This document shows, piece by piece, positions 7,992 to 37,619 of a DNA stretch of 40,839 nucleotides (the stretch's first letter is position 1; each line of letters opens with the position of its first letter). The notes under the pieces were generated by a model. That model did not search any database. It saw only the letters and a list, made by a program, of their open reading frames with translations, and was not told the origin of the DNA. The stretch is from an uncultured Clostridia bacterium. Lineage in GTDB: Bacteria; Bacillota; Clostridia; TANB77; CAG-508. The position numbers were made by a program, and so were the translations under genes. The stretch spans positions 1-40,839 of the forward strand of contig CANQMG010000003.1 of the NCBI GenBank assembly GCA_947624925.1, read 5' to 3'.

Positions 7992-9212
7992 ATGGAACTA
8001 AAGAGCAAATATCAATATACATATTTTATATATCCATATGTTATTGATGAATATAAATATAAAAAATATATTTTAAATTTATTAAAAAACAAAAATATAC
8101 ATATAAAAAATATTGAGCAAGAAAAAGATATAGAAATATATAATTACTTTTTGCCTAGTATAAAAAAATATATGTTTAGTAATTTTGAATTTACAAAAAA
8201 GAAAATAAATAATATAAAAAAACTAAATATAAAAACACAGGCAAATATTTTATCACAATATAATTGCGTTATGTTCGAATACGAACTAAACAAATCAATA
8301 CAAGGAAAAGCTGATTTAGAAAAATGCATATTTTTTGAAATTCAAAAAATTGAAGTAATATGTTTTAATACAGGAATATGTTTTTTAAATATAAAAACAA
8401 ATGTAGAAGGAAGTAATAATTTTTCGGATATATTAGATTTTAATTATAAATTTAAGGATATACAATCAAATAATAGCAAACTAAAAGATTATGAAAATAT
8501 AAAAATACAAACAAGTACATTTAAAGATATTGAAAGCATATCACAAATAATAACAACAATAACTGGAAATAAAAATTATTTAAAAGATTTAAATATACAT
8601 ACAAATAAATTCTTTACATATTCATATGTGTGCTTAGAACAAGATATGTGGAATAAAGAAAATGATTTTGAAAAAATAGAAAAAGATTATATAAAATATA
8701 TAGAACAAATGCCTAGTAATTGTAAAATAAATTATATGGTATTAGAAGAAATTACAAAAGGTGAATATATAAAAATAGGTGCTAATAATTTAGGAGTTGG
8801 TTTGATAACATCTGCTGTTGAATTGGAAAATTATACAAAGCTTCCATATGAGTTTGAAAATCAATATTTATATACATATATTATTGCTTTATATAAAAAA
8901 ATATATTTAGAAGTTATAAAGGACAAACTAGAAAATTACAAAAATATATATAATATTATAAAAAAAACAGAGAAATTTGAAAAAAGTTTTGAACAAAAAC
9001 AAATAACAGAAGATAAATTTGGAAATATATTTTTTGAATATATACAAGAAAAAATAGATTATAGAAAAACATTTGATGAAATAAATAAAATATATGAAAT
9101 AACAAATAAAAACAAGATATATAAGAAATTTCAAAGAAAAAATATTATATTAAAAATTGTATTATTAATATCAATAATAGTGAACATAATATTATTATGG
9201 AAACTTAATTGA
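7992..9212 (+). CDS. Uncharacterised protein with a single C-terminal transmembrane segment (tail-anchored)
   Basis: 406 aa ORF, RBS ggagag, ends '..NIILKIVLLISIIVNIILLWKLN'; no family recognised. Confidence 0.7.
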   Translation: MELKSKYQYTYFIYPYVIDEYKYKKYILNLLKNKNIHIKNIEQEKDIEIYNYFLPSIKKYMFSNFEFTKKKINNIKKLNIKTQANILSQYNCVMFEYELNKSIQGKADLEKCIFFEIQKIEVICFNTGICFLNIKTNVEGSNNFSDILDFNYKFKDIQSNNSKLKDYENIKIQTSTFKDIESISQIITTITGNKNYLKDLNIHTNKFFTYSYVCLEQDMWNKENDFEKIEKDYIKYIEQMPSNCKINYMVLEEITKGEYIKIGANNLGVGLITSAVELENYTKLPYEFENQYLYTYIIALYKKIYLEVIKDKLENYKNIYNIIKKTEKFEKSFEQKQITEDKFGNIFFEYIQEKIDYRKTFDEINKIYEITNKNKIYKKFQRKNIILKIVLLISIIVNIILLWKLN

Positions 9213-9270
9213 TGTTTAAAATTTAAAAAATTTGTATATAACATAGATATCATAAATAGAGAGGTAAAAA

Positions 9271-9663
9271 ATGCAAATAACTTGTGGAACAGATATTATA
9301 GAAATAGAAAGAATTAAAGAGTCCATTGAAAATTTGAAAGATGCATTTACAACAAAAATATATACTCCAAAAGAAATAGAATATTGTGAAAGCAAAAAAA
9401 ATGCTAAATATGAGCATTATGCTGCAAGATTCGCAGCAAAAGAAGCAATATATAAAGCAATTTCTCCAATTCTAAATAACAAATACGAAATATCTTGGAA
9501 GGATGCTGAAGTAGTAAATGATATAAATGGAAAGCCATATGTAAATTTTATAAATTATAAAACAGATAAAATAGAAAGTATAGATATAAGTTTATCACAT
9601 TGTAAAAAATATGCCACAGCAAATGTAACTATTTTATTAAAAAATAATTTGGAGGAAAAATGA
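9271..9663 (+). CDS. acpS: Holo-[acyl-carrier-protein] synthase
   Basis: GTDIIEIERI, YTPKEIEYC, AARFAAKEAIYKAI, SLSHCKKYATA. Confidence 0.93.
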   Translation: MQITCGTDIIEIERIKESIENLKDAFTTKIYTPKEIEYCESKKNAKYEHYAARFAAKEAIYKAISPILNNKYEISWKDAEVVNDINGKPYVNFINYKTDKIESIDISLSHCKKYATANVTILLKNNLEEK

Positions 9664-10442
9664 AATTATATGATTCTCATGCACATTATAATGATGAAAA
9701 ATTTGACGAAGATAGAAAAGAAATAATAGAAAAAATATTAAATGAAAATATAAATTTTATAATTGCGGGATATAATTTAAAATCATCTGAGGATGCAATA
9801 AAAATATCTGAAAAATACAAGCAAATATATTGCACATGTGGAATTTCTCCAAATGATATTATAGAAGATAAAAATCAAATGCTAAAACAATTAAATAAAA
9901 TAGAAGAAATTTCACAAAATAATAAAGTAGTAGCAATAGGAGAAATTGGTTTAGATTATTATTGGAACAAAGAAAATAAAAAAATACAAGAAGAAATGTT
10001 TATAAAACAAATAGAAATTGCAAATAAATTAGATTTACCAATTGTTATACACACAAGAGAAGCAATAAATGATACCTTAGAAATAATAAAAAATAATCCA
10101 GTAAAAAATAAAGGAGTATTCCATTGCTGTCCACTAAATAAATATTTAGTAGAAGAAGCTATTAAAATGGGATTTTATATTTCTTTTTCAGGAGTAATAA
10201 CATTTAAAAATTGTAAAAATGCAGATGAAATAATAAAAATAATTCCTGAGGATAAAATATTAATAGAAACAGATAGTCCTTATTTGGCACCAGAGCCTAA
10301 TAGAGGGAAAAGAAATGATTCAAGAAATGTAAAATATGTAGCTAAAAAAATTGCGATGGTAAAAGGCAAAACAATAGAAGAAATAGCAGATATAACGTAT
10401 AATAATATATCAAAAATATTTAGAAAAATTAAAAGATGTTAA
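9660..10442 (+). CDS. tatD: TatD family DNase
   Basis: YDSHAHYNDEKFDEDR, AIGEIGLDYYW, PIVIHTREA, LIETDSPYLAPEPNRGKRN; ATGA overlap with acpS. Confidence 0.93.
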   Translation: MKLYDSHAHYNDEKFDEDRKEIIEKILNENINFIIAGYNLKSSEDAIKISEKYKQIYCTCGISPNDIIEDKNQMLKQLNKIEEISQNNKVVAIGEIGLDYYWNKENKKIQEEMFIKQIEIANKLDLPIVIHTREAINDTLEIIKNNPVKNKGVFHCCPLNKYLVEEAIKMGFYISFSGVITFKNCKNADEIIKIIPEDKILIETDSPYLAPEPNRGKRNDSRNVKYVAKKIAMVKGKTIEEIADITYNNISKIFRKIKRC

Positions 10443-10530
10443 ATTTTATAATTATTAATTATAAAATTACTTGAATATTTTAAAATAATGTGTTAATTTA
10501 AATATAAATAAAAAATAAGGAGGTTATATT

Positions 10531-11082
10531 ATGTGGATTGCATTAATAGTTATAGCTGTAATTGTTATAATTTTAATTGCTATTTATAATGGTTTAGTAT
10601 CTTCAAGATTAAAAGTAAAAAATGCATGGAGTCAAATTGATGTACAATTACAAAGAAGATTTGATTTAATTCCAAATTTAGTAGATACTGTAAAAGGATA
10701 TATGAAACATGAAAATGAAACATTAACTAAGATAGCAGAATTAAGAACAGCATGGGCAGGAGCAAATACAGTTGCACAAAAAGCAGAATTAGATAATCAA
10801 TTATCAAGCACATTAAAAACAATTATGGCAGTATCAGAAAATTATCCAGATTTAAAGGCAAATCAAAATTTTTCAGATCTACAAGAAGAACTAAGAAATA
10901 CGGAAAATAAAATATCTTATGCAAGACAATTTTATAATGATAGTGTAACAATGTATAATACAAAATTAGCAGTATTTCCAAATAATATAATAGCTTCAAT
11001 GTTTAGATTTCAAGAAGAAGAATTATTCAAAACAGATGATGATGAAGCTAGAAAAAACGTAAAAGTAGATTTTAATAACTAA
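10531..11082 (+). CDS. lemA: LemA family protein
   Basis: N-terminal TM, 'VKNAWSQIDVQLQRRFDLIPNLVDTVKGYMKHE', 'RQFYNDSVTMYNTKLAVFPNNIIA'. Confidence 0.93.
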   Translation: MWIALIVIAVIVIILIAIYNGLVSSRLKVKNAWSQIDVQLQRRFDLIPNLVDTVKGYMKHENETLTKIAELRTAWAGANTVAQKAELDNQLSSTLKTIMAVSENYPDLKANQNFSDLQEELRNTENKISYARQFYNDSVTMYNTKLAVFPNNIIASMFRFQEEELFKTDDDEARKNVKVDFNN

Positions 11083-11086
11083 TAAT

Positions 11087-11112
11087 TTGGGCGTACATGC
11101 GCCCAATTTTTA
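11087..11112 (+). terminator. Hairpin with U-tract between lemA and htpX
   Basis: TTGGGCGtacatgCGCCCAATTTTT. Confidence 0.7.
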
Positions 11113-11153
11113 GCTATATAATAATGTTTTAAGCAAATTAAAGGAGAAACTTT

Positions 11154-12050
11154 ATGTATGAAGATATAAAGAAAAATAAAATTAAATCAGGTTTTATTGT
11201 ATCAGGTTTTATATTAATGATAACAATAATAGTATATTATATATGTGCAGCATTTGACTTAGGTGCATTTTCAATTGTAATAGCATTAATAGTTTCAATA
11301 ATATCTGCATGGGCATCATATTATAACAGTGATAAAATAATATTATCAATAAGTAATGCACGACCTGCAACAAAAGAAGAATATCAAAAATTAGTTAATA
11401 TATTAGATGCATTAGTTGTAAGTGCAGGTATGACTGTAACACCAAGAATATATGTAGTTGAAGATAATCAGCCAAATGCATTTGCAACTGGAAGAGATCC
11501 AGAACATTCTGTAATATGTGTTACATCAGCACTATTAGAGAAATTAGATTACTATGAACTAGAAGGTGTTATTGCACATGAATTATCACATATATATAAT
11601 TATGATATTAGACTTTCTGCAGTAATAACAGTAATGGTAGGACTAATAGTTATGGTATCAGATATGTTTACAAGAAATATATTTTTTTCAAGAAGATCAA
11701 GTAGAGATGATGATAATAAATCAAATGGAATATTAATGATATTGGGATTGATATTTTTAATAATATCTCCAATATTTGCAAAATTACTACAATTATGTGT
11801 ATCACGTAGAAGAGAATTTTTAGCCGATGCTACGGCTATACAATTTACAAGGAATCCAGATGGATTAATATCTGCACTTGAAAAAATATCTAATGATCCA
11901 AATGAATTGCAAACAGCAAGTACATCAACAGCACATATGTATATAGAAGATCCATTTAGAAAAAATTTAAAAAGTGGTAAAAAAACGAGTATATTTTCAA
12001 CTCATCCTAGTACAGAAGATAGGATAGCAGCATTAAAAGCTTTAAGATAA
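11154..12050 (+). CDS. htpX: HtpX-type M48 zinc metalloprotease
   Basis: GVIAHELSHIYNYD (HExxH), polytopic TMs, 'SRRREFLADATAIQFTRNP', FSTHPSTEDRIAAL. Confidence 0.93.
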   Translation: MYEDIKKNKIKSGFIVSGFILMITIIVYYICAAFDLGAFSIVIALIVSIISAWASYYNSDKIILSISNARPATKEEYQKLVNILDALVVSAGMTVTPRIYVVEDNQPNAFATGRDPEHSVICVTSALLEKLDYYELEGVIAHELSHIYNYDIRLSAVITVMVGLIVMVSDMFTRNIFFSRRSSRDDDNKSNGILMILGLIFLIISPIFAKLLQLCVSRRREFLADATAIQFTRNPDGLISALEKISNDPNELQTASTSTAHMYIEDPFRKNLKSGKKTSIFSTHPSTEDRIAALKALR

Positions 12051-16351: not shown

Positions 16352-19300
16352 ATGAAAAACAAAGACACTAAAAAAATTAATTTATTATTAAAAAAGGGAA
16401 AAGTAGCAATACCAATTGTATTAATTGCAATAGTAATGTTGCTTAGTTTCTTACTGTATAATGTAGGAAATAATAAGAATAATTTAATAAGTAAGGTAGA
16501 AGAAAACCAAGAGGCATTAAATTCAACTGAATATATATATAGAAAAAATTTAAAGGGATATATTACTAATAACAATATAACTATTTATCCTGATAGAACT
16601 CCTGGTATTATGGAATATAATGTAAGATATGTAGAATTGCAAAAAAAGAATGCTAAAGGGGAGTATGAAACATATTCAAATGCTGAGAATGGTAAGTATC
16701 AATATCTACATGGAGATGTAAATAATGATGGAGAAATAAATAAATATGATGCAGGATTAATATGGGGATATTTAGCTGGTCAAGCTAATCTTACTGAAGT
16801 TCAAAAGTTAGCAGCAGATATAAATGGAGATGGAATATTAAATAATATAGATTATCAAATTATATTATATACTACAGAGTCTAGAGAATATATTATAGGT
16901 AACCCTTCTACTAATGGAGATAATGACAAAATTAATGATAATTTTGATAATTATAATGAAATGAAATTTTTAAAGTCTGATGATGCTAGATTAGTGTTAA
17001 GAGCTTATGGAGGAATGTCAGAAGATGGTGAAAAGAATCCTCAAGAAAACAAAGAAACATTAGTTATTAGAATGTTGGCAGATATTGATTTTGATTATAA
17101 ATTTACATATGAAGAAGTAATATTATATTTAAGAGCATCAGCTAACTTAGAAGAAGATCCGTTAAAAGATGAATTAAAGGAATTATGTAATAAATTAGGA
17201 ATTTCAACTGAATATAGTGAAGGAGATGTAAAAACAGCTAAAGAATTTATAGCAGAACAAATATCTGGTATAATCGAATTAAAGAAAAAAATAAATAATG
17301 CATTATATTATTCAGATACTAATAACCAAGTTATGAAACTAAATATGAATAAAAATTTATTACCAGAGATAGTTGAAGAAGGAGAATATAAACTAGTAAC
17401 AAGAAGATTAAAAAATGCTAATGATGGTGGTAACATTAAATTAAGAGATAAAAATGGTTCAAAAACGCAAGATTTTATTTTGAATCATTCAGAAAATGCA
17501 GAAGAATATGAATTTGTAATAGATAAAACTGCTCCAACTGTTACTGGTACATCTCAAAATCCAAATTCTGATAAATGGACTAACAAAAATGTAACCGTTA
17601 CATTAACTTTTGATGAGGACGTTAAAAAATCAGGAGATAATGAATATAGTAAAAGTCAAGATATTACAATTACTGACAATGGAACTGTTAATACAACATT
17701 TTATGATAAAGCTGGAAATAGTGTAAATGTTCCAACAACTGTTACAAATATAGATAGAACACCAGCTGTGATTTCTGCTAGACCAAGTACTATGGAAGAT
17801 AGTAAAAATTTATTTTTATTAATAACAGCAAATGATGATGGAATTACACAAGAACAGTACATTACAAGTGACTTAAATGGTAACGGAAAAGGAAATGTTA
17901 CTGTTTATAAAAATACTGATAATACAGCTATGACTCTTAGTTCATGTGACAATAATGGAAATAAGGATGCATCTGATAAGAATTATACTAGATGTGATAT
18001 AACAGAAAATGGAACGTATGAGGTTAAAGTTACAGATAAAGCAGGAAATGTAACTAGAACAAGTATTGTTATAGATAATATAGATAAAACATCACCTGTA
18101 TATTCTGTAGTATATAGTACAGTAGACCCAACAAATGGAACTGTAACTGCAACAATATATTTTAGTGAAGAGGTAAAAAAAGAAAACACTAATGAATTTA
18201 ATACAGTATTTAAAGAAGACTTTACTTCTAATGGTACATCAAATAAAAAATTTACAGATAAAGCAGGAAATGAAATAACAGTAAATTTAACAGTTAATAA
18301 TATAGACAAAACTGAACCTAATTTAACAGTTACAAAAAAGATTGAAGGTAGCACAGAATGGACATCTGAAAATGCAACATTAAATATAGTAGCTACAGAT
18401 AGTGATATTGCATTTATAAAAGTAAATGGTGGAGTAATTTCTACTAATGAAACAGAAGTTAATGGTATAGATTACATCGTTACAGAAAATGGAGAATACA
18501 AAGTAGAAGTTATAGATAAAGCTGGAAATGTAAGTGCTAAAAAAGTTACAGTATCTAATATAGATAAAACACCAGCAGTTATATCTGTAAAGCCAAGTAC
18601 AACTAATAAAACAAAATCATTATATTTATTAATAACTGCAAATGATGATGGAATTACACAAGATCAGTATATTACAAGTGATTTAAATACTAGCGGAAAA
18701 GGAAATGTTAGTGTTTATAGAAATAGTGGTTCAAGTACTCTTACAGTTAACTCTTCAGATGGAAATGGTAATACCAGTGCATCTAAAAAGAATTATACAA
18801 AATGTGAAATAACGGAAAATGGAATATATGAAGTAAAGGTAACAGATAAAGCACAAAATATAACAAGAAAAACAATTTTAATAGACAATATTGATAAAAT
18901 TAATCCAACTGAAAAAGTTATATATAGTGAATATGGACCAACAAATAATAATGTAACAGCAACAGTATATTTTAGTGAACCAGTAAGTGTTAGTTTAGAT
19001 AATAAAAATAGTTATAGTAAACAGTACTTTACAACATATACATATGATTTTTCTGAAAATGGTACAAAAACATTAAATTATAAAGATGAAGCAGGAAATG
19101 AAAAGTCAGTAGAATTAAACGTTCAAAATATAGATAAAACAGCACCAAACGCACCTACTATTACAGGAAATCCTACAAATTGGACAAATGAAGATGCTAC
19201 ATTAAATATAACAGCATCAGATAATGATGGTGGATTAGGAATAGCAGAAATAAAAGTAAATGGTGCAATAGTATCAAATACTTCACCAGCTACATATGAG

Positions 19301-22300
19301 GTAGATAAAAATGGTGAATATGATGTAGAAATTGTAGACAAGGCTGGAAATGTTACATCACAAGCTGTTAATGTAACAAAAATAGATAAAGTTGAACCAA
19401 CTGTTCACGTAAATGTTCCAGATTTGAGAGCAAGTGTAGCAAAAACATTAACAGTTGATGCATATGATGGTTTATCAAAAGTAAAAAGTGTAACTGTAAA
19501 TGGAAATACACCTAACAAAGATAATGATAAATATACTGAAACAATAACAGAAAATGGAACATACAAAATTGCTGTAACAGATAATGCTGGTAATACAAAA
19601 ACTATAACTCAAACAGTAGAAAATATAGATCAATCTAAGCCAAATGTAACTATACAATCACCTGGAAGTAGATATATATTATCAAGTGAAAATGGAAAAG
19701 ATAGCAAAACATCAAAAATTACAGCAAAATTACATTCATATGATGAAAATGGAATATTAAAAACAATGTATATCTGGTGCCATGTAAAAGATGAAAAAGT
19801 TACATACCTTGGTAAAGATGGAAAAGAAAAAGATTTAACAGGAGTTACAAAAGGGGACGACGGAGCTTCAATTACTTCTGCAAATATATTAAAGGTACTA
19901 GATGCAGAAGGTGCAAGTGCTACTTGGCAAGAAGTAAATGAAATTACTCAAAACGAACTTGTGTTAGAGCAAGAATTTAAAGAAGCAGGATTATATGTTC
20001 TATTTGCTAAAACAAGAGATAAAGCAAATAACGAATATATTGCATATAAAGAATATGAAATTATAGATGAACCAATTACAAGTGTTACATATAAAGCAGG
20101 AACAGATGAAGAAACAACAGAAGATTTAAGTCAATTTACAGATAATAAGATAACAGAGCCTATGACAATAGAGTTAAAATATGATACTGCTGTAAAATCA
20201 AAAGAAGTAAGCTTTGACCATATAACATATTATGACCCAAATAAATTTGTAATAAGAAAAAATGGAACATTAGTGATAACTGTAAAAGACTGTAATGATA
20301 ATACATATGTAAAAACAGTAGATATTACTAAAATTGATGAAAATAGACCAATAGTTACAATTGAAGAAACAGGAAGAGAAGGAACAACTATTTCTTACAG
20401 ATTACATTGGAACAAAGAAGATATGAACTTTACAACTAATAATGTAATAGTTAAAAATGCAGAAAAATGTAATGGCGATGATGGATTTAAATTTGATGAT
20501 ACTGTTCAAAATGCTGAAGGTGAACCTGATGGAAAAACTGCTACATTAAAAGTTGACTATAAAAATAAAATAAAAAATAATGAGACAAAAGATGTAGAAA
20601 TATATATAAAAGCAGAAGATGCCTTAGATAATGATAGCTATTTAGCATATTATAGTTCAAGAGTAGATAGAAAAGTTCCAGAATTAAAAGAAATAAAGGT
20701 TTATGTTGATCCAAAAGTTGTTACTGTAAATTCAGATATAAGCAGAACAAAGAAAGATTACAACTCAGAAGAAACAATAACTATAGAGGCAATATTTGAT
20801 GAAGATGTTCAATTAACTGAAGATGGAAAATATCCAACATTAAATATATCTTTTGGTGATAATGAATCATTAGAAAAAGTACAAGACGGAGAAGTTCTAG
20901 GAAATGTAATAAAATATACTTATCAGATAAAATCTGGTGATAATGGAAAAATAAGCATAGACGAATTTTCAGGAAAAGTTAAAGATGATCAAGGAAACAT
21001 ATTAAACATACAAAATTATGGAAATATGAATGTAAATACAATAATTGCAGATACAATACTTCCATATGTTACAAAAGTAGATATAACAACAACTGATAAG
21101 AAAACAAACTTAAAAAATGATGATGAAATAACATTTGTAGTAAACTTTAATGAAAGTATCTATAAGAGAAATGAAAATAATGTAGAAAAAATAACTACTG
21201 TTCCTAATTTTAAATTTAAGTTAGGTGAGACAGAAAGAACGCTAAGTAATGGACAATTAAGTGAAGATGGAAAAAAAGTAACATACACATATAAAATAAA
21301 TAATGACAATGGAAAACTTTCATTAATGAGAGATACAGATAAAGCAAAAAATTCATTTGGAAGTTATGGAGATAGTATTGTTTCAGATATTGCAGGAAAT
21401 AAATTTACAGTTGAAAATAATGAAATAAATAAATATGGAATAACTTTAAATGGCGAAGATGTAACAGATAATGGAGATATTGATATTGAATCAGATTCAA
21501 CACCTGTAGCTATTGAAGATATAACAATGACAAATGCAAATGGACATGATGAATATCAAACTGGAGACAGAATAGATATAAAAGTTAACTTCACAGAGGA
21601 ATTATATACATCAGATGGAAAATTATTAACAGATGCTATAAATGAAGATGTAAATAAAAGAGCTTTAAATGGTGATATTAAATATGATGTAATAGATCCT
21701 GAAACAGGAAGTCTACTTGGATATATAATAGATCATGTTGATAGTGAAACTCGTAGAGAGATAAAAGACGAAGTAATATATAAATATCTACCTGACTTAA
21801 TATTAGATATAGATGGAAGAGATATTAAAGATGACCTTGAATTTGAAGATATAGAAAATATTGACGGAAAAACAGTTATAAGCTATTCATATGTAATAAA
21901 ATATGAAGATTATGGTGGAATAGAAGTTGAATCTTATGGAAATAAAGATATATATGATAAAGCTGGAAACAAAACTAATATAAATTATTCAGGAACAGAC
22001 TTTAATTATTATGAAAAAGATAAAGCAATATTTAATACTGGCTCAGTAAAAGTAAATAGAGTTAAAGCACCTTTTGTAAAATACATTGTAAAAGTACAAA
22101 ATGAAAGTGGAGAATGGATTGTAAAAGAAGGTGGAAATTACAAAAAAGGTGATAAAATTCAAATAGTTGCAGGATTTGATGGCTATTTAAGCAGTAATGG
22201 TGAAAAACCAAATGAAAAAAACAATTTAGAAGAATCATATAAAAACCATAATGCAAACTTATATTCACTTAAGATAACAGATGAAGAAGGAAACGAGCTT

Positions 22301-25300
22301 GATACCATAAGACCACTTACAGATGATCATAATCGTAATTCAAATGTTACATTAGCTGTAGGAAAAGAAAGACCAGCCAATAAAACTATTGACAAAAATA
22401 TGGTTATTACATATACATATGACTTAAATAAGGAGAATTTAGACTCAAATATTAAAGTAGGTATATATAACGAAGAAAACGGAAGTAAAGGTACATTAAG
22501 AAATTATAAAGATGAAACATATACTTATTCAAAAGATATATTAAGTAGTTTAGGAATTACTATAGATACAACAATGCCAAAAGCTACAGTAAATGATAAT
22601 GAACTAAAAGCAGGAGAAGAAGAAAACAGTAATAATACATTGGTAGATGAGGCAGATATAGAAGTTAAAGATATAGATATATCATCTTGGACATTAGAAA
22701 AACAGATAACAACTCAAGAAGGCCAAAAAGAATGGATAACAAGTAGAAGCGGAGCCGGAAATCCATATTACTTATATGTAACTACTCCAGGAAAATATAG
22801 ATTAACTTTAATAGATAAAGCTGGAAATACAACAATATATTATTTTGAAATAGTATCATCTAATGATGTTAAAGATGGAATAATAGGACAAAGCGAAAAT
22901 ACAGAAGATTATCCAAAAGAAGATGCACCACTTAAATTTACTGGATTTAATAAATACGAAGATGATGTATTAACTAAAAATGATGTTACAGTATCATTAA
23001 AAGAAGCAAACCATAAATTAAAAGGAGAAGAATCAGAAAATAATTCTTTACAATTACAAAATGGCTTAATAATATCAAAAGTAGAATATGTAGCTGAAGA
23101 TATAAGAATTCATTGGTATGAAGAAAATTATAATCCACAATATACTGAAGTAAAATTTGGTGAAACAACAACACTTTCAAATTTAGATGCAAGTAAAGAT
23201 TATACAGTAAAAGTAACAATAGTAGATACAGCAGGACAAAAACACGAAATTTACTACTATATAACAATAGATCAACAAAAGCCATTAGTAAAAGTAGAAG
23301 TTTCATTAGCAGATAGCACATTAAAAAATAATGATGATATCTATAAAGAAGGAACAAGATTAAATATTTCAGTAATAGTAAACGAGCCAATTTATAATGA
23401 GGATGAAAAAGCTGAAAAAAGGACTTTTGTTACAGCTCCTAAATTAAAAGTATATTTTGGAGAAGGAGAAGAGAAAAAACAAGGAACAGCAAGCAACGGA
23501 TATGCAGTATATCAATTTGGTTCTACATATATATATTCATATGCATATACAATTGGACAAGATGATAATGGACCAATAAGCTTAGAATTTGATAGTAAAG
23601 ATGTATATGATAAAGCTGGAAATAAAATTAATTTATTAGATGATAGTAAAGAGCCAGAACCTGTAGAAGAAGAACATCCAGAAGAGAAAAAAGAAGTTCA
23701 ACCAAGAGTAACATTTAAATATAATGATATTATAGCTGATGCAAAATTACCAACAGTAGATATTAAGTTATATAATGACGATGAAGAAATTACAACAGGT
23801 TATACAAACAAAGATGAACTTAAAGTAGAATTTATTTGGAGTGAAAATGTAACAGGATTTGATGTTTCAGATGTAAGCATTTATGGAATGGGAGAAACAT
23901 TAAGTGAATTTACAGGTCCTTCAGAAGACGGTACACATAAATACACAGCTAAATTAAATACAAGCAGTATTCAAGAGGGAACCATAAGAATTGGTATAGA
24001 ACAAAATGCAGTAAGAGATAAAGCTGGAAATTATAATGTAAGAAAAGAAATTTCTATTATAAAAGATAAAAAAGCACCTACTTTGGAATCACTTACAACA
24101 TATGCAGTAGAGCCATATAAAATTGAAGTAGATGATGAAGTAAGCCCATATAAAGAATACTATAAAGATGAAGAACAAGTTGTAGTTGAAGCTGTATTTA
24201 GTGAGGCAATACAAGATGAAGATCTTCCAACATTAAACCTAAAACTTGGAAAGGCAAATGTTAAAGGAGAAGTAGAAACAGAGGTTTCAGGAGATACAAT
24301 AACATATACTTATACTATAACAGATGGAGATAATGGAGAAATTTCAGTAGGAAAATTTGCAGGAACTGTAAAAGACTTAGCAGGAAACACTAAGAGAATT
24401 GCTGGTAAAGATATAGATGGTGAAACAGTAATTGCAGATACAACAGACCCAGTGCTAAAAACAGTAAATATTAAAACTCAAATAGATAGTACAACACAAC
24501 AACCAAAAACAAATGTAAAAGCTGGAGATACTATAACAATTGAGCTTGAATATAGTGAAAATGTGTATGATTTAGAAGAAAGTGAAGATAAACTTACAAA
24601 TACAATAATAAATTTGGCTAAAGATTTAATAAGTTCAGATTACTTTACATTATCAGATGAAGATGAAATAACAGTTGAAGAAAATAAAGTAATTTACACA
24701 GCTACAATAAATGATAATGTAAATGAAAAATTAAATACAGTAGGGTATAATGGAACTGTTTATGATATTGCAGGAAATGCTTTAACAGCAGAAACTCTAC
24801 CACAAGATACGAAAGTATTAGTAAATGGAAATGATGTAAATAATGATGGTAGTGAAGAAGGAAAAGGTGGAATAGTAGTAGATACTACAAAACCAACTGC
24901 AAATGAAAATTCAATAATAATAGATGCAGTATCAGATATACAAGGAACAGCACCATATTATAAAGCAGGAACAAACTTAACTATAAAAATTAGTTTAGCT
25001 GAAGATATTAAAGTTTGTGAAGGAAATGAATTACAAGGTGGAGTAAAAGTACAACCTATTACTCAATCTGAAATACACTTTGGAGAAGAAGTTTCTGAAG
25101 AAAATATAGGAAAAGGTAAACTAACATTTAAAGGATATGAAGATAAAACATTAATATTTGAATATACAATTGAAGATGGAGATAATGGAGACTTTAACTT
25201 AGTAATACCTGAAAATGCTATAGAAGATTTAGCAGGAAACTTAAATGATGAAATTACAATTGAATATGGAGAGCAAGCAGGAGATAAAAAAGGTGTTGTA

Positions 25301-27508
25301 GCAGATACAATAGCACCAACAATAAATTTACAAAGTGATATTCAATTAAGTAATGGTAGTGGTAATACATTTAATGTTACAGCAAACTTCTCAGAAGATT
25401 TGTATGATGTAAAAGATAATACTAGAACAACTTTAGATTTAGATAATGCTTTACAATTTATTTATACATATAATGGAACAGGAGAAAGAACATCTGTAAA
25501 AGCAAATTCTATAAATGGAAATAAAATTACATATACATTTAATGTAGAAGCTGATAAAGAAGTTGCTACAAGTAAAATAGAGAAAAATGGATTTACAGGA
25601 ACAGCATATGATAGAGCAGGAAATGGATATTCTATGAATCAAACATCTATATTTATAAGAAAAATTACAGTAAGTCTTGCAGATGATGAACAAACAAATG
25701 AATACAATAGATATAAAGCAGGAACAAAAATTAACATTGAAGTAGAATTAAATAAGGAAATTGCTAAATCACAGAATGATCCTACAATAAAAATAAAATT
25801 CGGAGATAGTGAAGAAGAACATGAATTAACAGGAAATATCTCTGATAATAAGATAACATTTGAATATACTATAGCAAATGGAGATAATGGAGAATTAAAG
25901 GTAACACAACTATCTGGAGTAGTAAAAGATGTAAGTTCAGGTAATGATGATACATTTGATTTGGAAGATATGTCTATAGACGGATTAGCAAGAGATACAA
26001 TTATAGCAGATACAACAGCTCCAATAGCCACAGTAACAGTTCAAAATGTTAATAATATAACAAATGCTGATACAATAACTTACAAGATTAAATGGAGCGA
26101 AGAAGTTATAGGATTTGAGGAAAATGATATCAAGGTACAAAATGGAACTATAATAAATTATAAATATGATGAAAATTCAAATGAAGCAACTATAGAAGTA
26201 TTAAAACAAAATGAAGGAAAACAGATTGTATTTATAGCTGCAAATGTATGTGAAGATCAAGCAGGAAATGAAAATATTAGAAGTGAAATAAATAATATAA
26301 CAATAGACACTACAGAACCTACAATAAGGGCAATAGTAAATGGTGGAAATTATGTTATAGATAGTAGTACACAAAAATCTAAGATAGAAACAAAATTAGA
26401 AATAAGTGAAGAAATATCTAGCTTAAAATACAAATGGTCAAAAGAAACTGCTGAAAATGTAGATATGTCAGATGCTACAGAAGTTGATTTAACAGACTTA
26501 GATATAAACGATATACCAATTGCAACAGAAATATCTGAAGAAGGAACTTGGTATTTATATATAACAGCAACAGATATTGCTGGAAATACTAAAAATGCTA
26601 AAACAAAAGCATTTAACGTAAAAGCATCAACAATTGAAATTACTCTAAGCAAGGAAGAAAAAACAAATACAGATATTGTAGCAAATGTAAAATACGGAGA
26701 ATATCTAACAGAAAAACAACTTCTAAGAATTGGAGAACAAGGCTCAGCAGATGCAAGTAAAATTACTGTTAAAGAAAATGGAACTGTACATGCAGAAGCT
26801 ACTGATGGACATGGAAATAAAGTAATAGCAGAAAAAGAGGTTACAAACATATTCAAAAATCCACCAGAAGTAAAAGTAACTGAAGATGCAGGAACAATAA
26901 CAGTAGAAACAACAGATAATGGAGCTGGTATAAAATCTACAACAGTAAAAGGACCAGACGGAGAAAATATAGAACAAAATGAGGACGGAACATATACTGT
27001 AACAGAAAATGGAACATATACTGTAACTGTAGAAGATGAAGCTGGTAATGTAGTAGAAAAGGAAATTGAAGTAAAAGATCTTGATTTACAAGTTGAAACA
27101 GATTATACTATAGTAGAAAAAGACTCTAAGAAATATATAAAGGTAAGTCCAAATACAACAGCTAGTGATATAATAAAGAATGTAAAAGTCTTGAAACAAG
27201 AAAATGCTACAAAAGAAGTTTATGACAAAGATAAAAAGGTTTCTGATAGTGATAAATTAAAAACTGGTGAAGTAATGAAAATTAATGGAGAAGAAACATA
27301 TATAATTGTTGTAAATGGAGACTTAAATAAAGACGGAAATATTTCAATATCAGATTTTGGTTTACTAAATGATTATATACTAGAAAGAAAAAAGAATTTG
27401 GAAACTGTAGTTTTAATTGCTGCTGATGTAACTAATGATGGTGAAATAACAATATCAGATTTTGGTAAATTAAATGCATACTTATTAGGAAGAAATGTAA
27501 GTTTATAA
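16352..27508 (+). CDS. Giant (3718 aa) Ig-like-repeat surface protein with N- and C-terminal dockerin modules
   Basis: Single uninterrupted ORF; N-terminal signal/anchor helix (VAIPIVLIAIVMLLSFLLY); two canonical dockerin-type EF-hand pairs; many 'DKTAP...DKAGN' and 'GDNGEISV..FAGTVKDLAGN...ADTT.P' Ig-like units. Confidence 0.93.
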   Translation: MKNKDTKKINLLLKKGKVAIPIVLIAIVMLLSFLLYNVGNNKNNLISKVEENQEALNSTEYIYRKNLKGYITNNNITIYPDRTPGIMEYNVRYVELQKKNAKGEYETYSNAENGKYQYLHGDVNNDGEINKYDAGLIWGYLAGQANLTEVQKLAADINGDGILNNIDYQIILYTTESREYIIGNPSTNGDNDKINDNFDNYNEMKFLKSDDARLVLRAYGGMSEDGEKNPQENKETLVIRMLADIDFDYKFTYEEVILYLRASANLEEDPLKDELKELCNKLGISTEYSEGDVKTAKEFIAEQISGIIELKKKINNALYYSDTNNQVMKLNMNKNLLPEIVEEGEYKLVTRRLKNANDGGNIKLRDKNGSKTQDFILNHSENAEEYEFVIDKTAPTVTGTSQNPNSDKWTNKNVTVTLTFDEDVKKSGDNEYSKSQDITITDNGTVNTTFYDKAGNSVNVPTTVTNIDRTPAVISARPSTMEDSKNLFLLITANDDGITQEQYITSDLNGNGKGNVTVYKNTDNTAMTLSSCDNNGNKDASDKNYTRCDITENGTYEVKVTDKAGNVTRTSIVIDNIDKTSPVYSVVYSTVDPTNGTVTATIYFSEEVKKENTNEFNTVFKEDFTSNGTSNKKFTDKAGNEITVNLTVNNIDKTEPNLTVTKKIEGSTEWTSENATLNIVATDSDIAFIKVNGGVISTNETEVNGIDYIVTENGEYKVEVIDKAGNVSAKKVTVSNIDKTPAVISVKPSTTNKTKSLYLLITANDDGITQDQYITSDLNTSGKGNVSVYRNSGSSTLTVNSSDGNGNTSASKKNYTKCEITENGIYEVKVTDKAQNITRKTILIDNIDKINPTEKVIYSEYGPTNNNVTATVYFSEPVSVSLDNKNSYSKQYFTTYTYDFSENGTKTLNYKDEAGNEKSVELNVQNIDKTAPNAPTITGNPTNWTNEDATLNITASDNDGGLGIAEIKVNGAIVSNTSPATYEVDKNGEYDVEIVDKAGNVTSQAVNVTKIDKVEPTVHVNVPDLRASVAKTLTVDAYDGLSKVKSVTVNGNTPNKDNDKYTETITENGTYKIAVTDNAGNTKTITQTVENIDQSKPNVTIQSPGSRYILSSENGKDSKTSKITAKLHSYDENGILKTMYIWCHVKDEKVTYLGKDGKEKDLTGVTKGDDGASITSANILKVLDAEGASATWQEVNEITQNELVLEQEFKEAGLYVLFAKTRDKANNEYIAYKEYEIIDEPITSVTYKAGTDEETTEDLSQFTDNKITEPMTIELKYDTAVKSKEVSFDHITYYDPNKFVIRKNGTLVITVKDCNDNTYVKTVDITKIDENRPIVTIEETGREGTTISYRLHWNKEDMNFTTNNVIVKNAEKCNGDDGFKFDDTVQNAEGEPDGKTATLKVDYKNKIKNNETKDVEIYIKAEDALDNDSYLAYYSSRVDRKVPELKEIKVYVDPKVVTVNSDISRTKKDYNSEETITIEAIFDEDVQLTEDGKYPTLNISFGDNESLEKVQDGEVLGNVIKYTYQIKSGDNGKISIDEFSGKVKDDQGNILNIQNYGNMNVNTIIADTILPYVTKVDITTTDKKTNLKNDDEITFVVNFNESIYKRNENNVEKITTVPNFKFKLGETERTLSNGQLSEDGKKVTYTYKINNDNGKLSLMRDTDKAKNSFGSYGDSIVSDIAGNKFTVENNEINKYGITLNGEDVTDNGDIDIESDSTPVAIEDITMTNANGHDEYQTGDRIDIKVNFTEELYTSDGKLLTDAINEDVNKRALNGDIKYDVIDPETGSLLGYIIDHVDSETRREIKDEVIYKYLPDLILDIDGRDIKDDLEFEDIENIDGKTVISYSYVIKYEDYGGIEVESYGNKDIYDKAGNKTNINYSGTDFNYYEKDKAIFNTGSVKVNRVKAPFVKYIVKVQNESGEWIVKEGGNYKKGDKIQIVAGFDGYLSSNGEKPNEKNNLEESYKNHNANLYSLKITDEEGNELDTIRPLTDDHNRNSNVTLAVGKERPANKTIDKNMVITYTYDLNKENLDSNIKVGIYNEENGSKGTLRNYKDETYTYSKDILSSLGITIDTTMPKATVNDNELKAGEEENSNNTLVDEADIEVKDIDISSWTLEKQITTQEGQKEWITSRSGAGNPYYLYVTTPGKYRLTLIDKAGNTTIYYFEIVSSNDVKDGIIGQSENTEDYPKEDAPLKFTGFNKYEDDVLTKNDVTVSLKEANHKLKGEESENNSLQLQNGLIISKVEYVAEDIRIHWYEENYNPQYTEVKFGETTTLSNLDASKDYTVKVTIVDTAGQKHEIYYYITIDQQKPLVKVEVSLADSTLKNNDDIYKEGTRLNISVIVNEPIYNEDEKAEKRTFVTAPKLKVYFGEGEEKKQGTASNGYAVYQFGSTYIYSYAYTIGQDDNGPISLEFDSKDVYDKAGNKINLLDDSKEPEPVEEEHPEEKKEVQPRVTFKYNDIIADAKLPTVDIKLYNDDEEITTGYTNKDELKVEFIWSENVTGFDVSDVSIYGMGETLSEFTGPSEDGTHKYTAKLNTSSIQEGTIRIGIEQNAVRDKAGNYNVRKEISIIKDKKAPTLESLTTYAVEPYKIEVDDEVSPYKEYYKDEEQVVVEAVFSEAIQDEDLPTLNLKLGKANVKGEVETEVSGDTITYTYTITDGDNGEISVGKFAGTVKDLAGNTKRIAGKDIDGETVIADTTDPVLKTVNIKTQIDSTTQQPKTNVKAGDTITIELEYSENVYDLEESEDKLTNTIINLAKDLISSDYFTLSDEDEITVEENKVIYTATINDNVNEKLNTVGYNGTVYDIAGNALTAETLPQDTKVLVNGNDVNNDGSEEGKGGIVVDTTKPTANENSIIIDAVSDIQGTAPYYKAGTNLTIKISLAEDIKVCEGNELQGGVKVQPITQSEIHFGEEVSEENIGKGKLTFKGYEDKTLIFEYTIEDGDNGDFNLVIPENAIEDLAGNLNDEITIEYGEQAGDKKGVVADTIAPTINLQSDIQLSNGSGNTFNVTANFSEDLYDVKDNTRTTLDLDNALQFIYTYNGTGERTSVKANSINGNKITYTFNVEADKEVATSKIEKNGFTGTAYDRAGNGYSMNQTSIFIRKITVSLADDEQTNEYNRYKAGTKINIEVELNKEIAKSQNDPTIKIKFGDSEEEHELTGNISDNKITFEYTIANGDNGELKVTQLSGVVKDVSSGNDDTFDLEDMSIDGLARDTIIADTTAPIATVTVQNVNNITNADTITYKIKWSEEVIGFEENDIKVQNGTIINYKYDENSNEATIEVLKQNEGKQIVFIAANVCEDQAGNENIRSEINNITIDTTEPTIRAIVNGGNYVIDSSTQKSKIETKLEISEEISSLKYKWSKETAENVDMSDATEVDLTDLDINDIPIATEISEEGTWYLYITATDIAGNTKNAKTKAFNVKASTIEITLSKEEKTNTDIVANVKYGEYLTEKQLLRIGEQGSADASKITVKENGTVHAEATDGHGNKVIAEKEVTNIFKNPPEVKVTEDAGTITVETTDNGAGIKSTTVKGPDGENIEQNEDGTYTVTENGTYTVTVEDEAGNVVEKEIEVKDLDLQVETDYTIVEKDSKKYIKVSPNTTASDIIKNVKVLKQENATKEVYDKDKKVSDSDKLKTGEVMKINGEETYIIVVNGDLNKDGNISISDFGLLNDYILERKKNLETVVLIAADVTNDGEITISDFGKLNAYLLGRNVSL
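16709..16880 (+). other. N-terminal dockerin type I module of the giant protein
   Basis: HGDVNNDGEINKYDAGLIWGYLAGQANLTEVQKLAADINGDGILNNIDYQIILYTT: two DxNxDG calcium loops. Confidence 0.88.
16960..17160 (+). other. Degenerate second dockerin-like module
   Basis: 'LKSDDARLVLRAYGG...LADIDFDYKFTYEEVILYLRASANLE' resembles dockerin helices (..aDARLvLRaaagle) with eroded calcium loops. Confidence 0.5.
17750..19381 (+). repeat. Tandem duplication of a ~270-aa three-module Ig unit inside the giant gene
   Basis: Unit 1 17750-18559 (810 bp) starts IDRTPAVISARPST..LITANDDGITQEQYITSDLN; unit 2 18560-19381 (822 bp) starts IDKTPAVISVKPST..LITANDDGITQDQYITSDLN. Confidence 0.85.
27312..27508 (+). other. 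C-terminal dockerin type I module of the giant protein
   Basis: NGDLNKDGNISISDFGLLNDYILERKKNLETVVLIAADVTNDGEITISDFGKLNAYLLGRNVSL*. Confidence 0.9.
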
Positions 27509-27568
27509 TAAAATATTGATTTTATAGAAATATTTGATTATAATATAGTTAATAATATTATAAAATAA

Positions 27569-27599
27569 TTTAGGCAGGCATATTTTCTGCCTGCCTAAA
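27569..27599. promoter_or_regulatory. Perfect 12-bp intercistronic hairpin between dockerin and cohesin genes
   Basis: TTTAGGCAGGCA tattttc TGCCTGCCTAAA; no U-tract on either side, 19 bp upstream of the cohesin start. Confidence 0.8.
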
Positions 27600-27618
27600 C
27601 AAAGAAAAGGAGAGAAAT

Positions 27619-28440
27619 ATGAAAAAGACAATTAACGTAATATTATTTTTAATGCTCAGTTTAATTCTACTAACGACTACAGTATTAGCAGAAAACATAA
27701 CAGCTAGTATGAGCCCAAGTTCAAATTCTGTAAAAACAGGTGATACATTTACAGTATCTATTAATCTAAGTAATTCAGAAGGTTTAAATTCAGGAAAAGG
27801 AACAATAACTTATAGTAGTGATGTTTTAACCTTGGAAAGTATAAGTGCAGGAGATTCAACCGCATGGAGTCAACCTACTAAAGAAGATAATGGAAATGGA
27901 CAAGCTACATTTACAATAGCTAGGAATTCATATGATGTAAGTGGAAATAAAATTGTAACATTAACATTTAAGGTTAAGGAAAATGTAACAGTAGAACAAA
28001 CTGTTATTTCAGTATCTAATTTTACAGTATCAAACAGTAATTATGAAGATGTTGATGTTCCAGATGCAAATGTAACAGTTAAAATAACAAATGCTAATGC
28101 TGGAACTGGCAATGATACAGGAAACAATGGACAAGGTGGAAATACAGCAACTGTGGATCCAAGTGGTGTAGTAGATACAAATAGTGTAGCAGATCCAAAT
28201 AGTTCTGGAAATACACAAACACCATCAAATACAAACACAAATCAAAATGCAAATACAAATCAAAATGTAAATACAAGTAACAATAAAAATACAAATACAA
28301 ATTTAAATCAAAATAAGAATACAGCAAAAGGAAAATTACCACAAACAGGATTAAACTCAATATTACCAATACTTATTATTGCAGTAATAGCAATAGGAAT
28401 AGGAACATATGCATCATATAGAAAATATAAAAATATGTAA
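27619..28440 (+). CDS. Secreted cohesin-domain protein with Asn/Thr-rich linker and LPQTG sortase cell-wall anchor
   Basis: Signal peptide; 'SPSSNSVKTGDTFTVSINLSNSEGLNSGKGTITYSSDVLTLESISAG' cohesin fold; linker NTNQNANTNQNVNTSNNKNTN; LPQTG (28336-28350) + hydrophobic segment + basic tail YRKYKNM. Confidence 0.88.
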   Translation: MKKTINVILFLMLSLILLTTTVLAENITASMSPSSNSVKTGDTFTVSINLSNSEGLNSGKGTITYSSDVLTLESISAGDSTAWSQPTKEDNGNGQATFTIARNSYDVSGNKIVTLTFKVKENVTVEQTVISVSNFTVSNSNYEDVDVPDANVTVKITNANAGTGNDTGNNGQGGNTATVDPSGVVDTNSVADPNSSGNTQTPSNTNTNQNANTNQNVNTSNNKNTNTNLNQNKNTAKGKLPQTGLNSILPILIIAVIAIGIGTYASYRKYKNM

Positions 28441-28627: not shown

Positions 28628-28990
28628 ATGTATAAAATAATTTTTTATCAAAATATTAAAGGATATAGTGAAGTAGAAGAATATATCAAAGAGCTAAGAG
28701 ACAGTAAAAATAAAAATTGCAGAATACAGCTAACTAAAATAACAGCATACTTAAACCTTTTATCTGAAAAAGGGTTATCAATAGGAGAGCCATATATAAA
28801 ACATCTTAAAGGAGATATATGGGAATTAAGACCTATAAGAAATAGAATACTTTTTGCTAATTTTAATAATAATAAATTTATATTATTAAGCAAATTTATA
28901 AAGCAAACTCAAAAAACACCTAAAAAAGAAATCGAAAAAGCAGAAACCTATTTAAAAGATTATAAAACAAGGAGGCAAAATTATGAGTGA
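28628..28990 (+). CDS. higB: HigB/RelE-like toxin (Gp49-like)
   Basis: 'GLSIGEPYIKHLKGDIWELRPIRNRILFANFNNNKFILLSKFIKQTQKTPKKEIEKAETYLKDYKTR'. Confidence 0.9.
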   Translation: MYKIIFYQNIKGYSEVEEYIKELRDSKNKNCRIQLTKITAYLNLLSEKGLSIGEPYIKHLKGDIWELRPIRNRILFANFNNNKFILLSKFIKQTQKTPKKEIEKAETYLKDYKTRRQNYE

Positions 28991-29288
28991 GAAAGAATTA
29001 ACTTGGGAAGAAGTTAAAAAAAGTTTAAAATTTACACCTAATGAAGAAGCTGAAATACAGCTAGAAATGGATATAATTGAAGCAACAATTGCAGCTCGTA
29101 AGGAAAATAATCTTACTCAAAGAGAGCTAAGTGCAAAAAGTGGTATAAAGCAACCGGTTATTGCTAGAATTGAAAAGTTTATTAATTCACCTCAAACTAA
29201 TACCCTTATAAAACTTTTATATCCAATGGGGTATACAATAAAAGTAGTCCCACTAGATAAAACATTAAAGAGTAAAAATAATAAATAA
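28983..29288 (+). CDS. higA: HigA-type XRE antitoxin
   Basis: Overlaps higB by 8 bp; HTH 'AARKENNLTQRELSAKSGIKQPVIARIEKFINSPQTNTLIKLL'. Confidence 0.92.
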   Translation: MSEKELTWEEVKKSLKFTPNEEAEIQLEMDIIEATIAARKENNLTQRELSAKSGIKQPVIARIEKFINSPQTNTLIKLLYPMGYTIKVVPLDKTLKSKNNK

Positions 29289-36089: not shown

Positions 36090-37619
36090 ATGATATATTC
36101 TGAAAAACAATATAAAGAATTAGAAGAACAATTAAAGAAATTGAAAAGAGAAAATGAATTAAAAGAAAAAGAAAATAAATTATTGAAGCAACAAAATAAA
36201 CAAAAAGATGAAATTATTCATGATTTAGATAAAAACAACTACAAAGGGCAATATGAAACTTTAAAATTAGAAAATATAGAACTCAAAAAAAAACTAAAGA
36301 TATTCGAAGAAAAATTCGAGATGCAGAGAATCAGCTTAGGAAAAAATAGCAGTAATAGTTGTAAGCCATCATCAACAAATGGCTTTAAAAGAGTTGTTCA
36401 AAATAATCGTGTAAAATCTGGAAGAAAACCTGGTAGAGAAAAAGGTCATTTAAAGTCTACTCCGACTGTAAGTAAAACACCAGATGAAGTAGTAAAAGTA
36501 TCTAGAGTAGCAACATGTACATGTGGTCATAAGACAATAGAGAAAGAAGAAGTATCAAGAGATTTAATATCACTAGAAATAATTGTACATACTACACAGT
36601 ATAGAGGCAAGAAAACAGTATGTCCATGTTGTAATAAAGAATATATGCCTAAATTTCCAGAACAAGTAAAAAATATAATAAACTATGATGAAGGAATAAA
36701 GGCACTGATAGTATACTTAAATTCATATTGTAATGTGCCAAACCAAAAGACAGTAGAACTATTAGGTTTATTAAGCAACGATAAAATAAAGATGTGTCAT
36801 GGTACAGTTGGAAATACCATAGCTCAATTTAGTAAAAAAAGTAAGCCTATTCTAAAAAAGATGAAACAACAAATCTTAAAGACACCAGTAATTAATGAAG
36901 ATGAAACACCAATAAAAGTCAATGGCAAGCTTATGAGTGTAATAGGGGTATTTACAAAAGGAATATCATTACTAGAAGCTTTTGAGCATAGAACTCTCGA
37001 AAGTTTTGAAGAAATGGGTATTCTTAATAGATATATAGGAACAGTATGTCATGACCATAATAAAATACATGACTCATTTATACAATCAAAACAAGCAGAA
37101 TGTAATTTTCACATTTTAAGATATTGTAAAGCAGAATATGAAGTACATAAAAGAGAATGTATTAAAAAATTTATGGATTATCTGTTAAGCTTGAGGGATA
37201 AAGTTGATGAATATAAATTGGAAGGGAAAACATCTTTCACAGAGAAAGAATACGAAGAAGTAAAAACAAAATACTTAAAATTACTAGACATATGGGATAC
37301 AGAATTTAAAAAAGATTATGATAAAAAAGAATATTTTGATAGTGAGAGATGTTTAAAAACAAGGCTGAGAGAACGTGTTGATGATCATTTAAGATTTTTA
37401 ACAGATTTTAGAATTGATTTTACAAATAATTTAGCAGAAAGAGGATTAAGAAAAGTAAAAACGAAATTAAAAATTGCAGGAGGATTTAGGAAATTAGAAT
37501 TTTCTAGATATTATTGTGATGCAATAAGTATAATAGATACATGTAAGAAGCAAAATATGAATATTGGAGAAACCATAAAAAATATATTTAAAGGAAATAA
37601 AAAAATATTTGCTTTTTAA
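36090..37619 (+). mobile_element. IS66-family transposase (TnpC-like), stand-alone
   Basis: Coiled-coil N-terminus, Cys4-type zinc motif (CTCG..CPCC), 'VINEDETPIKVNGK', 'CHDHNKIHDSF', 'CNFHILRYCK', 'TNNLAERGLRKVKTKLKIAGGFR'. Confidence 0.85.

Follow-up and report, generated by a model that had tools for sequence, protein, structure and literature searches.

Cohesin–dockerin binding is known mainly as the glue of the cellulosome. The OlpA cohesin of Clostridium thermocellum, held by SLH domains, is an anchoring single type I cohesin, and its complex with Doc918 (3ul4) is by sequence the nearest solved relative of both the C-terminal dockerin described here and the cohesin profile of the family, although OlpA works in a cellulosome and our pair does not. 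In Ruminococcus flavefaciens, ScaE is a single-cohesin sortase anchor for CttA, ScaB and others, non-enzymatic cargo with C-terminal dockerins encoded in the same gene cluster, and symmetric dockerins occur there on LRR, transglutaminase-like, peptidase and unknown proteins (PMC5301203, PMC2930009, PMC3573020). In gut Clostridia, the LPxTG single cohesin cSca5 of the Limousia mucinolysome is predicted to attach dockerin-bearing proteins to the wall (PMC12997984). Non-cellulosomal cohesin–dockerin systems have also been proposed earlier, such as the planctosome of Nemodlikiaceae, which lies outside cellulose degradation (PMC6461901). The Clostridium perfringens cohesins (2jh2, 2vo8) are likewise non-cellulosomal, and the protease modules of C. 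thermocellum (8x39) carry two dockerins per protein, in tandem (PMC12484212).

The window analyzed here is a stretch of 40,839 nucleotides comprising the whole of one contig in a 1.276-Mb, 98-contig genome of an uncultured Clostridia bacterium, rated 100% complete with 4.23% contamination. It encodes, on the forward strand, a 3718-aa giant surface protein (16352–27508), a single intact ORF with a ribosome-binding site, and a 273-aa sortase-substrate cohesin, the socket (27619–28440); both ORFs lie exactly where the initial annotation had placed them. We consider it probable that the two genes form a surface-mounting unit, in which the wall-linked cohesin socket holds the giant by its C-terminal dockerin. 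As with ScaE, a single LPXTG cohesin is encoded beside a non-enzymatic protein that ends in a dockerin. ScaE, however, serves a full cellulosome, with one anchor for many proteins, whereas here there is no cellulosome and sockets are commonly one-to-one with the adjacent cargo gene; moreover, the modules of our pair resemble type I, and its cargo, an Ig giant, carries dockerins near both ends. The multi-cohesin scaffoldins and dockerin-bearing mucin glycosidases of the Limousia mucinolysome (PMC12997984) are both missing here, and the planctosome (PMC6461901) and the C. perfringens cohesins differ in anchor, cargo and gene organization. A literature search, which covered few subscription papers, found no paper on this pair arrangement in these bacteria.

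The identity of the small protein as an LPQTG-ended cohesin, proposed in the initial annotation and made dependent on recognition of 27619–28440 by a cohesin profile, is well supported. Pfam Cohesin (PF00963) scores 39.3 bits against a cut-off of 24.1 (E 9e-10), and the domain occupies 27688–28101. The AlphaFold model of this domain, built from 31 aligned sequences, has a mean pLDDT of 91.4, and all of the top structures that Foldseek retrieved for it from the PDB are cohesins (TM 0.7–0.8), the best being the C. perfringens modules 2jh2 and 2vo8, with type I cellulosomal cohesins also among the leaders. A PDB sequence search with the window cohesin alone returned chance matches and no cohesin, while the family profile does find cohesins. 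The C-terminus (28336–28437) consists of the LPQTG motif, a transmembrane hydrophobic segment and a lysine-rich basic tail, aligned with LPxTG-like ends in relatives; TIGR01167 scores 15.9 bits, exactly its cut-off. Together with nine sortase matches in the genome, this end marks the protein as a probable sortase substrate. The small protein would thus be exported and then linked to the wall by sortase through LPQTG, presenting one cohesin.

The giant consists of an N-terminal hydrophobic segment, an N-terminal dockerin, a long stalk of Ig-like repeats and a C-terminal dockerin. The hydrophobic segment (residues ~17–38, 16400–16465), located by a hydropathy scan and the sequence, is likely an uncleaved signal anchor; judged by eye, no obvious AXA-type signal-peptidase site is present, so that of the two terms in the earlier description, "secreted/anchored", the latter is the likelier. 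Pfam Dockerin_1 is found twice (55.6 bits against a cut-off of 22.9), and both copies carry the two 12-residue calcium loops of type I dockerins (DVNNDGEINKYD/DINGDGILNNID and DLNKDGNISISD/DVTNDGEITISD). A local dockerin profile delimits the N-terminal copy to 16706–16870 (E 4e-18) and the C-terminal copy, a feature of 27305–27505, to 27305–27499 (E 6e-22), in agreement with the previously noted limits of 16709–16880 and 27312–27508. The N-terminal dockerin has the recognition residues KY/NI, and its nearest PDB match is 8x39; the dockerins of 8x39 are tandem (PMC12484212), whereas ~3,500 residues separate those of the giant, one being near either end. The C-terminal dockerin is symmetric, with the recognition residues IS/IS, and its best PDB match is 3ul4_B. 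In the stalk (17519–27031, outer limits approximate), the motif D-x-AGN occurs 19 times. Apart from the dockerins, Pfam recognized only Ig-like Big_12 and BiPBP_C-like repeats and no catalytic domain in the giant, as had been noted before. Between the stalk and the C-terminal dockerin, a putative module without a Pfam match (27062–27298) occupies an X-module-like position. As regards a ScaE-like type III cohesin with an X-dockerin partner, the pair has this putative pre-dockerin module, and its sequence and fold matches favor type I and C. perfringens cohesins. Besides the dockerin, the N-terminal region of the giant showed practically no conservation across 146 family genomes.

According to our preferred explanation, the exported giant would be held at the surface by its symmetric C-terminal dockerin, which would plug into the cohesin socket in a calcium-dependent manner, and the plugged giant would display its Ig-type stalk. 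We infer an adhesive or spacer role for the stalk, because no enzyme domain was found. The N-terminal dockerin and the hydrophobic segment probably provide a second attachment near the membrane, with a different partner.

The arrangement is not confined to this genome, as a search for conserved synteny, suggested at the outset, revealed. Among 40 genomes of the family, about one per genus, a cohesin was found in 36 and a dockerin in 39. The start of 34 of the 99 cohesins, in 23 genomes, lies at most 600 nt downstream of a dockerin encoded on the same strand, while random placement would give ~0.1 by an arithmetic estimate. In a second sample of 54 MAG loci, retrieved independently by cohesin sequence alone from uncultured Clostridia (mostly Lapin (rabbit) isolates, with some wild-mouse and other metagenomes), a C-terminal-dockerin protein is encoded directly 5′ of the cohesin in 50. 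The dockerin–cohesin pair is therefore a real, recurrent system. In 40 loci from the family genomes, most P0002-like cohesins, which measure 230–390 aa and have LPxTG-like ends, are preceded by a protein of 330–6,061 aa with a dockerin at its end. The cargo includes proteins that combine NPCBM with F5/8-type-C domains, papain-like peptidases with lectin-like domains, LRR proteins, a transglutaminase-core protein and Ig giants (in the window and in genomes G059 and G020), and its kinds match those of R. flavefaciens. Chains also occur, in which adaptors with both a cohesin and a dockerin lie between cargo genes (loci L091, L093 and L121). Beyond the order, this type of cohesin occurs sparsely: matches were obtained in 16 of 288 genomes of the class, family and order members included, and a few neighboring dockerin and cohesin genes are found outside the order as well. 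Within the genus, G059 has an AI-2E transporter gene, a 2,220-aa Ig protein with a C-terminal dockerin (34% identity over 1,105 aa) and an LPQTG cohesin, while in G081 the transporter gene is directly beside that for RNase III, with neither giant nor cohesin in between. Since G059 keeps both genes and G081 lacks both, they appear to have been gained or lost together. Two further architectures were observed among the relatives. In locus L121 (3–8901), tandem giants, each with a cohesin immediately preceding the C-terminal dockerin, are encoded ahead of an LPXTG-type cohesin, possibly a surface daisy chain; in a 2,792-aa protein of a related genome (L219, 1693–10071), an N-terminal cohesin is combined with a dockerin and an M26 (IgA1-type) peptidase region.

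The dockerins and the adjacent cohesins also co-vary. The Mantel correlation between dockerin and cohesin distances was 0.94 for 78 pairs. Because the two genes are linked, the cargo attached to the dockerin was used as a control. For the 49 pairs with homologous NPCBM cargo, the correlation was 0.88 for dockerin–cohesin, 0.60 for cargo–cohesin and 0.46 for cargo–dockerin, with a partial dockerin–cohesin correlation of 0.85 given the cargo; for the strictest 44 pairs, all of one dockerin subclass, the corresponding values were 0.55, 0.49, 0.20 and 0.53. The dockerin thus tracks its neighbor's cohesin more closely than its own polypeptide. The best-correlating dockerin positions are 10, 11, 14, 15, 18, 19 and 22, which we take to be the helix face familiar from cellulosome work. 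Positions 10, 11, 17, 18 and 22 exceed the others with p 0.009 for all pairs and p 0.04 for the non-NPCBM pairs, and the excess is not significant in the strict NPCBM subset (p 0.12); all three values are rough, given that columns are non-independent. Part of the co-variation between linked genes can stem from their exchange as one cassette. For the window pair the family argument is indirect, because its cohesin is only ~22–32% identical to those of the relatives. In sequence searches, the best matches of the window C-terminal dockerin and of the family cohesin profile were the two partner chains of 3ul4, a solved anchoring complex.

Genome-wide searches for the cohesin and dockerin profiles revealed neither a multi-cohesin scaffoldin nor a dockerin on a carbohydrase or other glycoside hydrolase in the assembly. 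A conventional cellulosome, the possibility that the initial annotation had wished to see examined, is thereby ruled out, and its reading of the locus as something else than a cellulosome holds. Its description of the pair as self-contained does not, because sortases aside, the genome contains other cohesins and dockerins: single-cohesin proteins are encoded on contigs C3 (the window), C5 and C68, with a weaker cohesin-like protein on C5 (three or four in total), and the dockerins number four, of which the giant carries two and contigs C5 and C45 encode one each. The proteins with the latter two contain SH3 domains and are autolysin-like; their N-terminal parts look glucosaminidase-like by eye and were not called by Pfam. 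The C5 genes (L017, 7341–12734) belong, with loci L213–L217, to a second recurring operon of similar spacing in ~18 genera of the family. Its order is an LPXTG cohesin of ~360 aa, a sortase (in the window's own genome), an SH3/Big_2 autolysin-like dockerin protein of ~750 aa and a membrane protein with cohesin-like and cadherin-like parts, an arrangement that suggests a wall hydrolase retained by cohesin–dockerin binding. In L017, the autolysin-like dockerin gene (8618–10916) and the sortase gene (10974–11628) each appear to be split into two frames in the assembly, by sequencing error or decay. On contig C14 (L235, 2027–9643), a degenerate dockerin-like stretch (E 0.035) lies within a 2,538-aa protein that is repetitive and adhesin-like and has a membrane segment at its C-terminus.

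The initial annotation had supposed that the wall-bound cohesin captures the C-terminal dockerin, the N-terminal one, or both. Adjacency, co-variation and the 3ul4 partner matches make capture of the C-terminal dockerin most likely, while binding of both ends by the same cohesin is doubtful, because their recognition residues are unlike (KY/NI versus IS/IS) and the two-ended form is rare. The retrieved loci include 95 proteins of more than 500 aa that end in a dockerin (a few counted twice); a second dockerin near the N-terminus was found in three of them, namely the giant of the window and those of loci L123 and L102. All three have, just before the N-terminal dockerin or dockerins, a hydrophobic segment in which no cleavage site is evident by eye. 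We take the N-terminal dockerin to be probably a second attachment near the membrane, or a structural module. A refinement of the preferred explanation, compatible with it and to be entertained as a tentative possibility, is that the N-terminus stays in the membrane, with its dockerin docked nearby or structural, and the C-terminal dockerin sits on the wall cohesin, so that the giant would form an outward loop or bridge the envelope. The two-ended proteins differ in this respect from the single-ended N-dockerin proteins of locus L101, which have clear signal peptides; however, there are only three examples, and in the G059 protein, from the same genus, the signal looks cleavable and the N-terminal dockerin is absent. 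With a dockerin at either end of its very long stalk, the giant could also be engaged by cohesins of different cells, or of a released scaffold, in an intercellular lattice or cell–cell tether. We regard this as quite improbable in view of the rarity of the two-ended form, the closeness of the N-terminal dockerin to what is probably a membrane segment and the differing recognition residues of the two ends.

The further cohesins and dockerins in the genome raise another alternative, that sockets are shared: the cohesins and dockerins would cross-react, the window cohesin would mainly anchor other proteins, such as the SH3 autolysin-like ones of C5 and C45, and the giant would bind other cohesins. 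G020 offers a case in point, where two giants on different contigs, of 4,112 aa (L103, 117–12455) and 6,061 aa (L084, 1813–19998), have near-identical C-terminal dockerins, and a cohesin is seen beside the 6,061-aa one only. In the window's own genome, however, the dockerins are unlike at the recognition positions (IS/IS, KY/NI, SV/SS and SG/SG), and the C5 dockerin protein sits in its own operon with cohesins; these features and the strong co-variation of each dockerin with the cohesin next to it lead us to consider shared sockets unlikely. Dockerin-like stretches inside proteins without evident partners, such as the 2,538-aa protein of C14 and one in locus L218, would fit dockerins that are calcium-stabilized caps only, with the cohesin as a coincidental neighbor. 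The adjacency far above chance and the co-variation at the recognition face make this extremely improbable.

We therefore favor the wall-linked socket that holds the giant by its C-terminal dockerin, although the co-transcription of the two genes is not assured, because the 110-nt gap between them includes a hairpin and a promoter-like site. The promoter-like site (TTGATT-17-TATAAT, 27516–27544, + strand) matches 10 of 12 positions and belongs to a class not enriched over shuffles. The 12-bp hairpin (27568–27600, z = −5.0) is terminator-like on the − strand only; it is strong and the sole one of its kind in the window. These elements suggest, without proof, that the socket may be expressed separately or boosted. 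Of the mucinolysome genes of Limousia, that for the anchoring cohesin has the highest expression (PMC12997984).

Such a system would provide modular surface display with swappable cargo in the majority of the genera sampled from this uncultured gut lineage, whose genomes measure ~1.1–2.3 Mb, no cellulosome having been detected in the genome studied, and would account for the mounting of proteins of 1,000–6,000 residues on these cells. The family also offers dozens of natural, probably orthogonal cohesin–dockerin pairs for specificity tests and protein assembly. A broader view, which we put forward as rather speculative, is that a family of small-genome gut Clostridia mounts its giants through separate, co-evolving, orthogonal cohesin sockets in place of an LPXTG motif on each cargo, and that the two-ended variant is held at both its membrane end and the wall by two dockerin specificities, as a loop or strap.

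Immediately 3′ of the cohesin gene, the window contains a Gp49/RelE-like toxin and HTH antitoxin pair (28628–29288), which is missing along with the giant and the cohesin at the matching site of G081 (L212). An IS66-family transposase gene lies further downstream (36090–37619).
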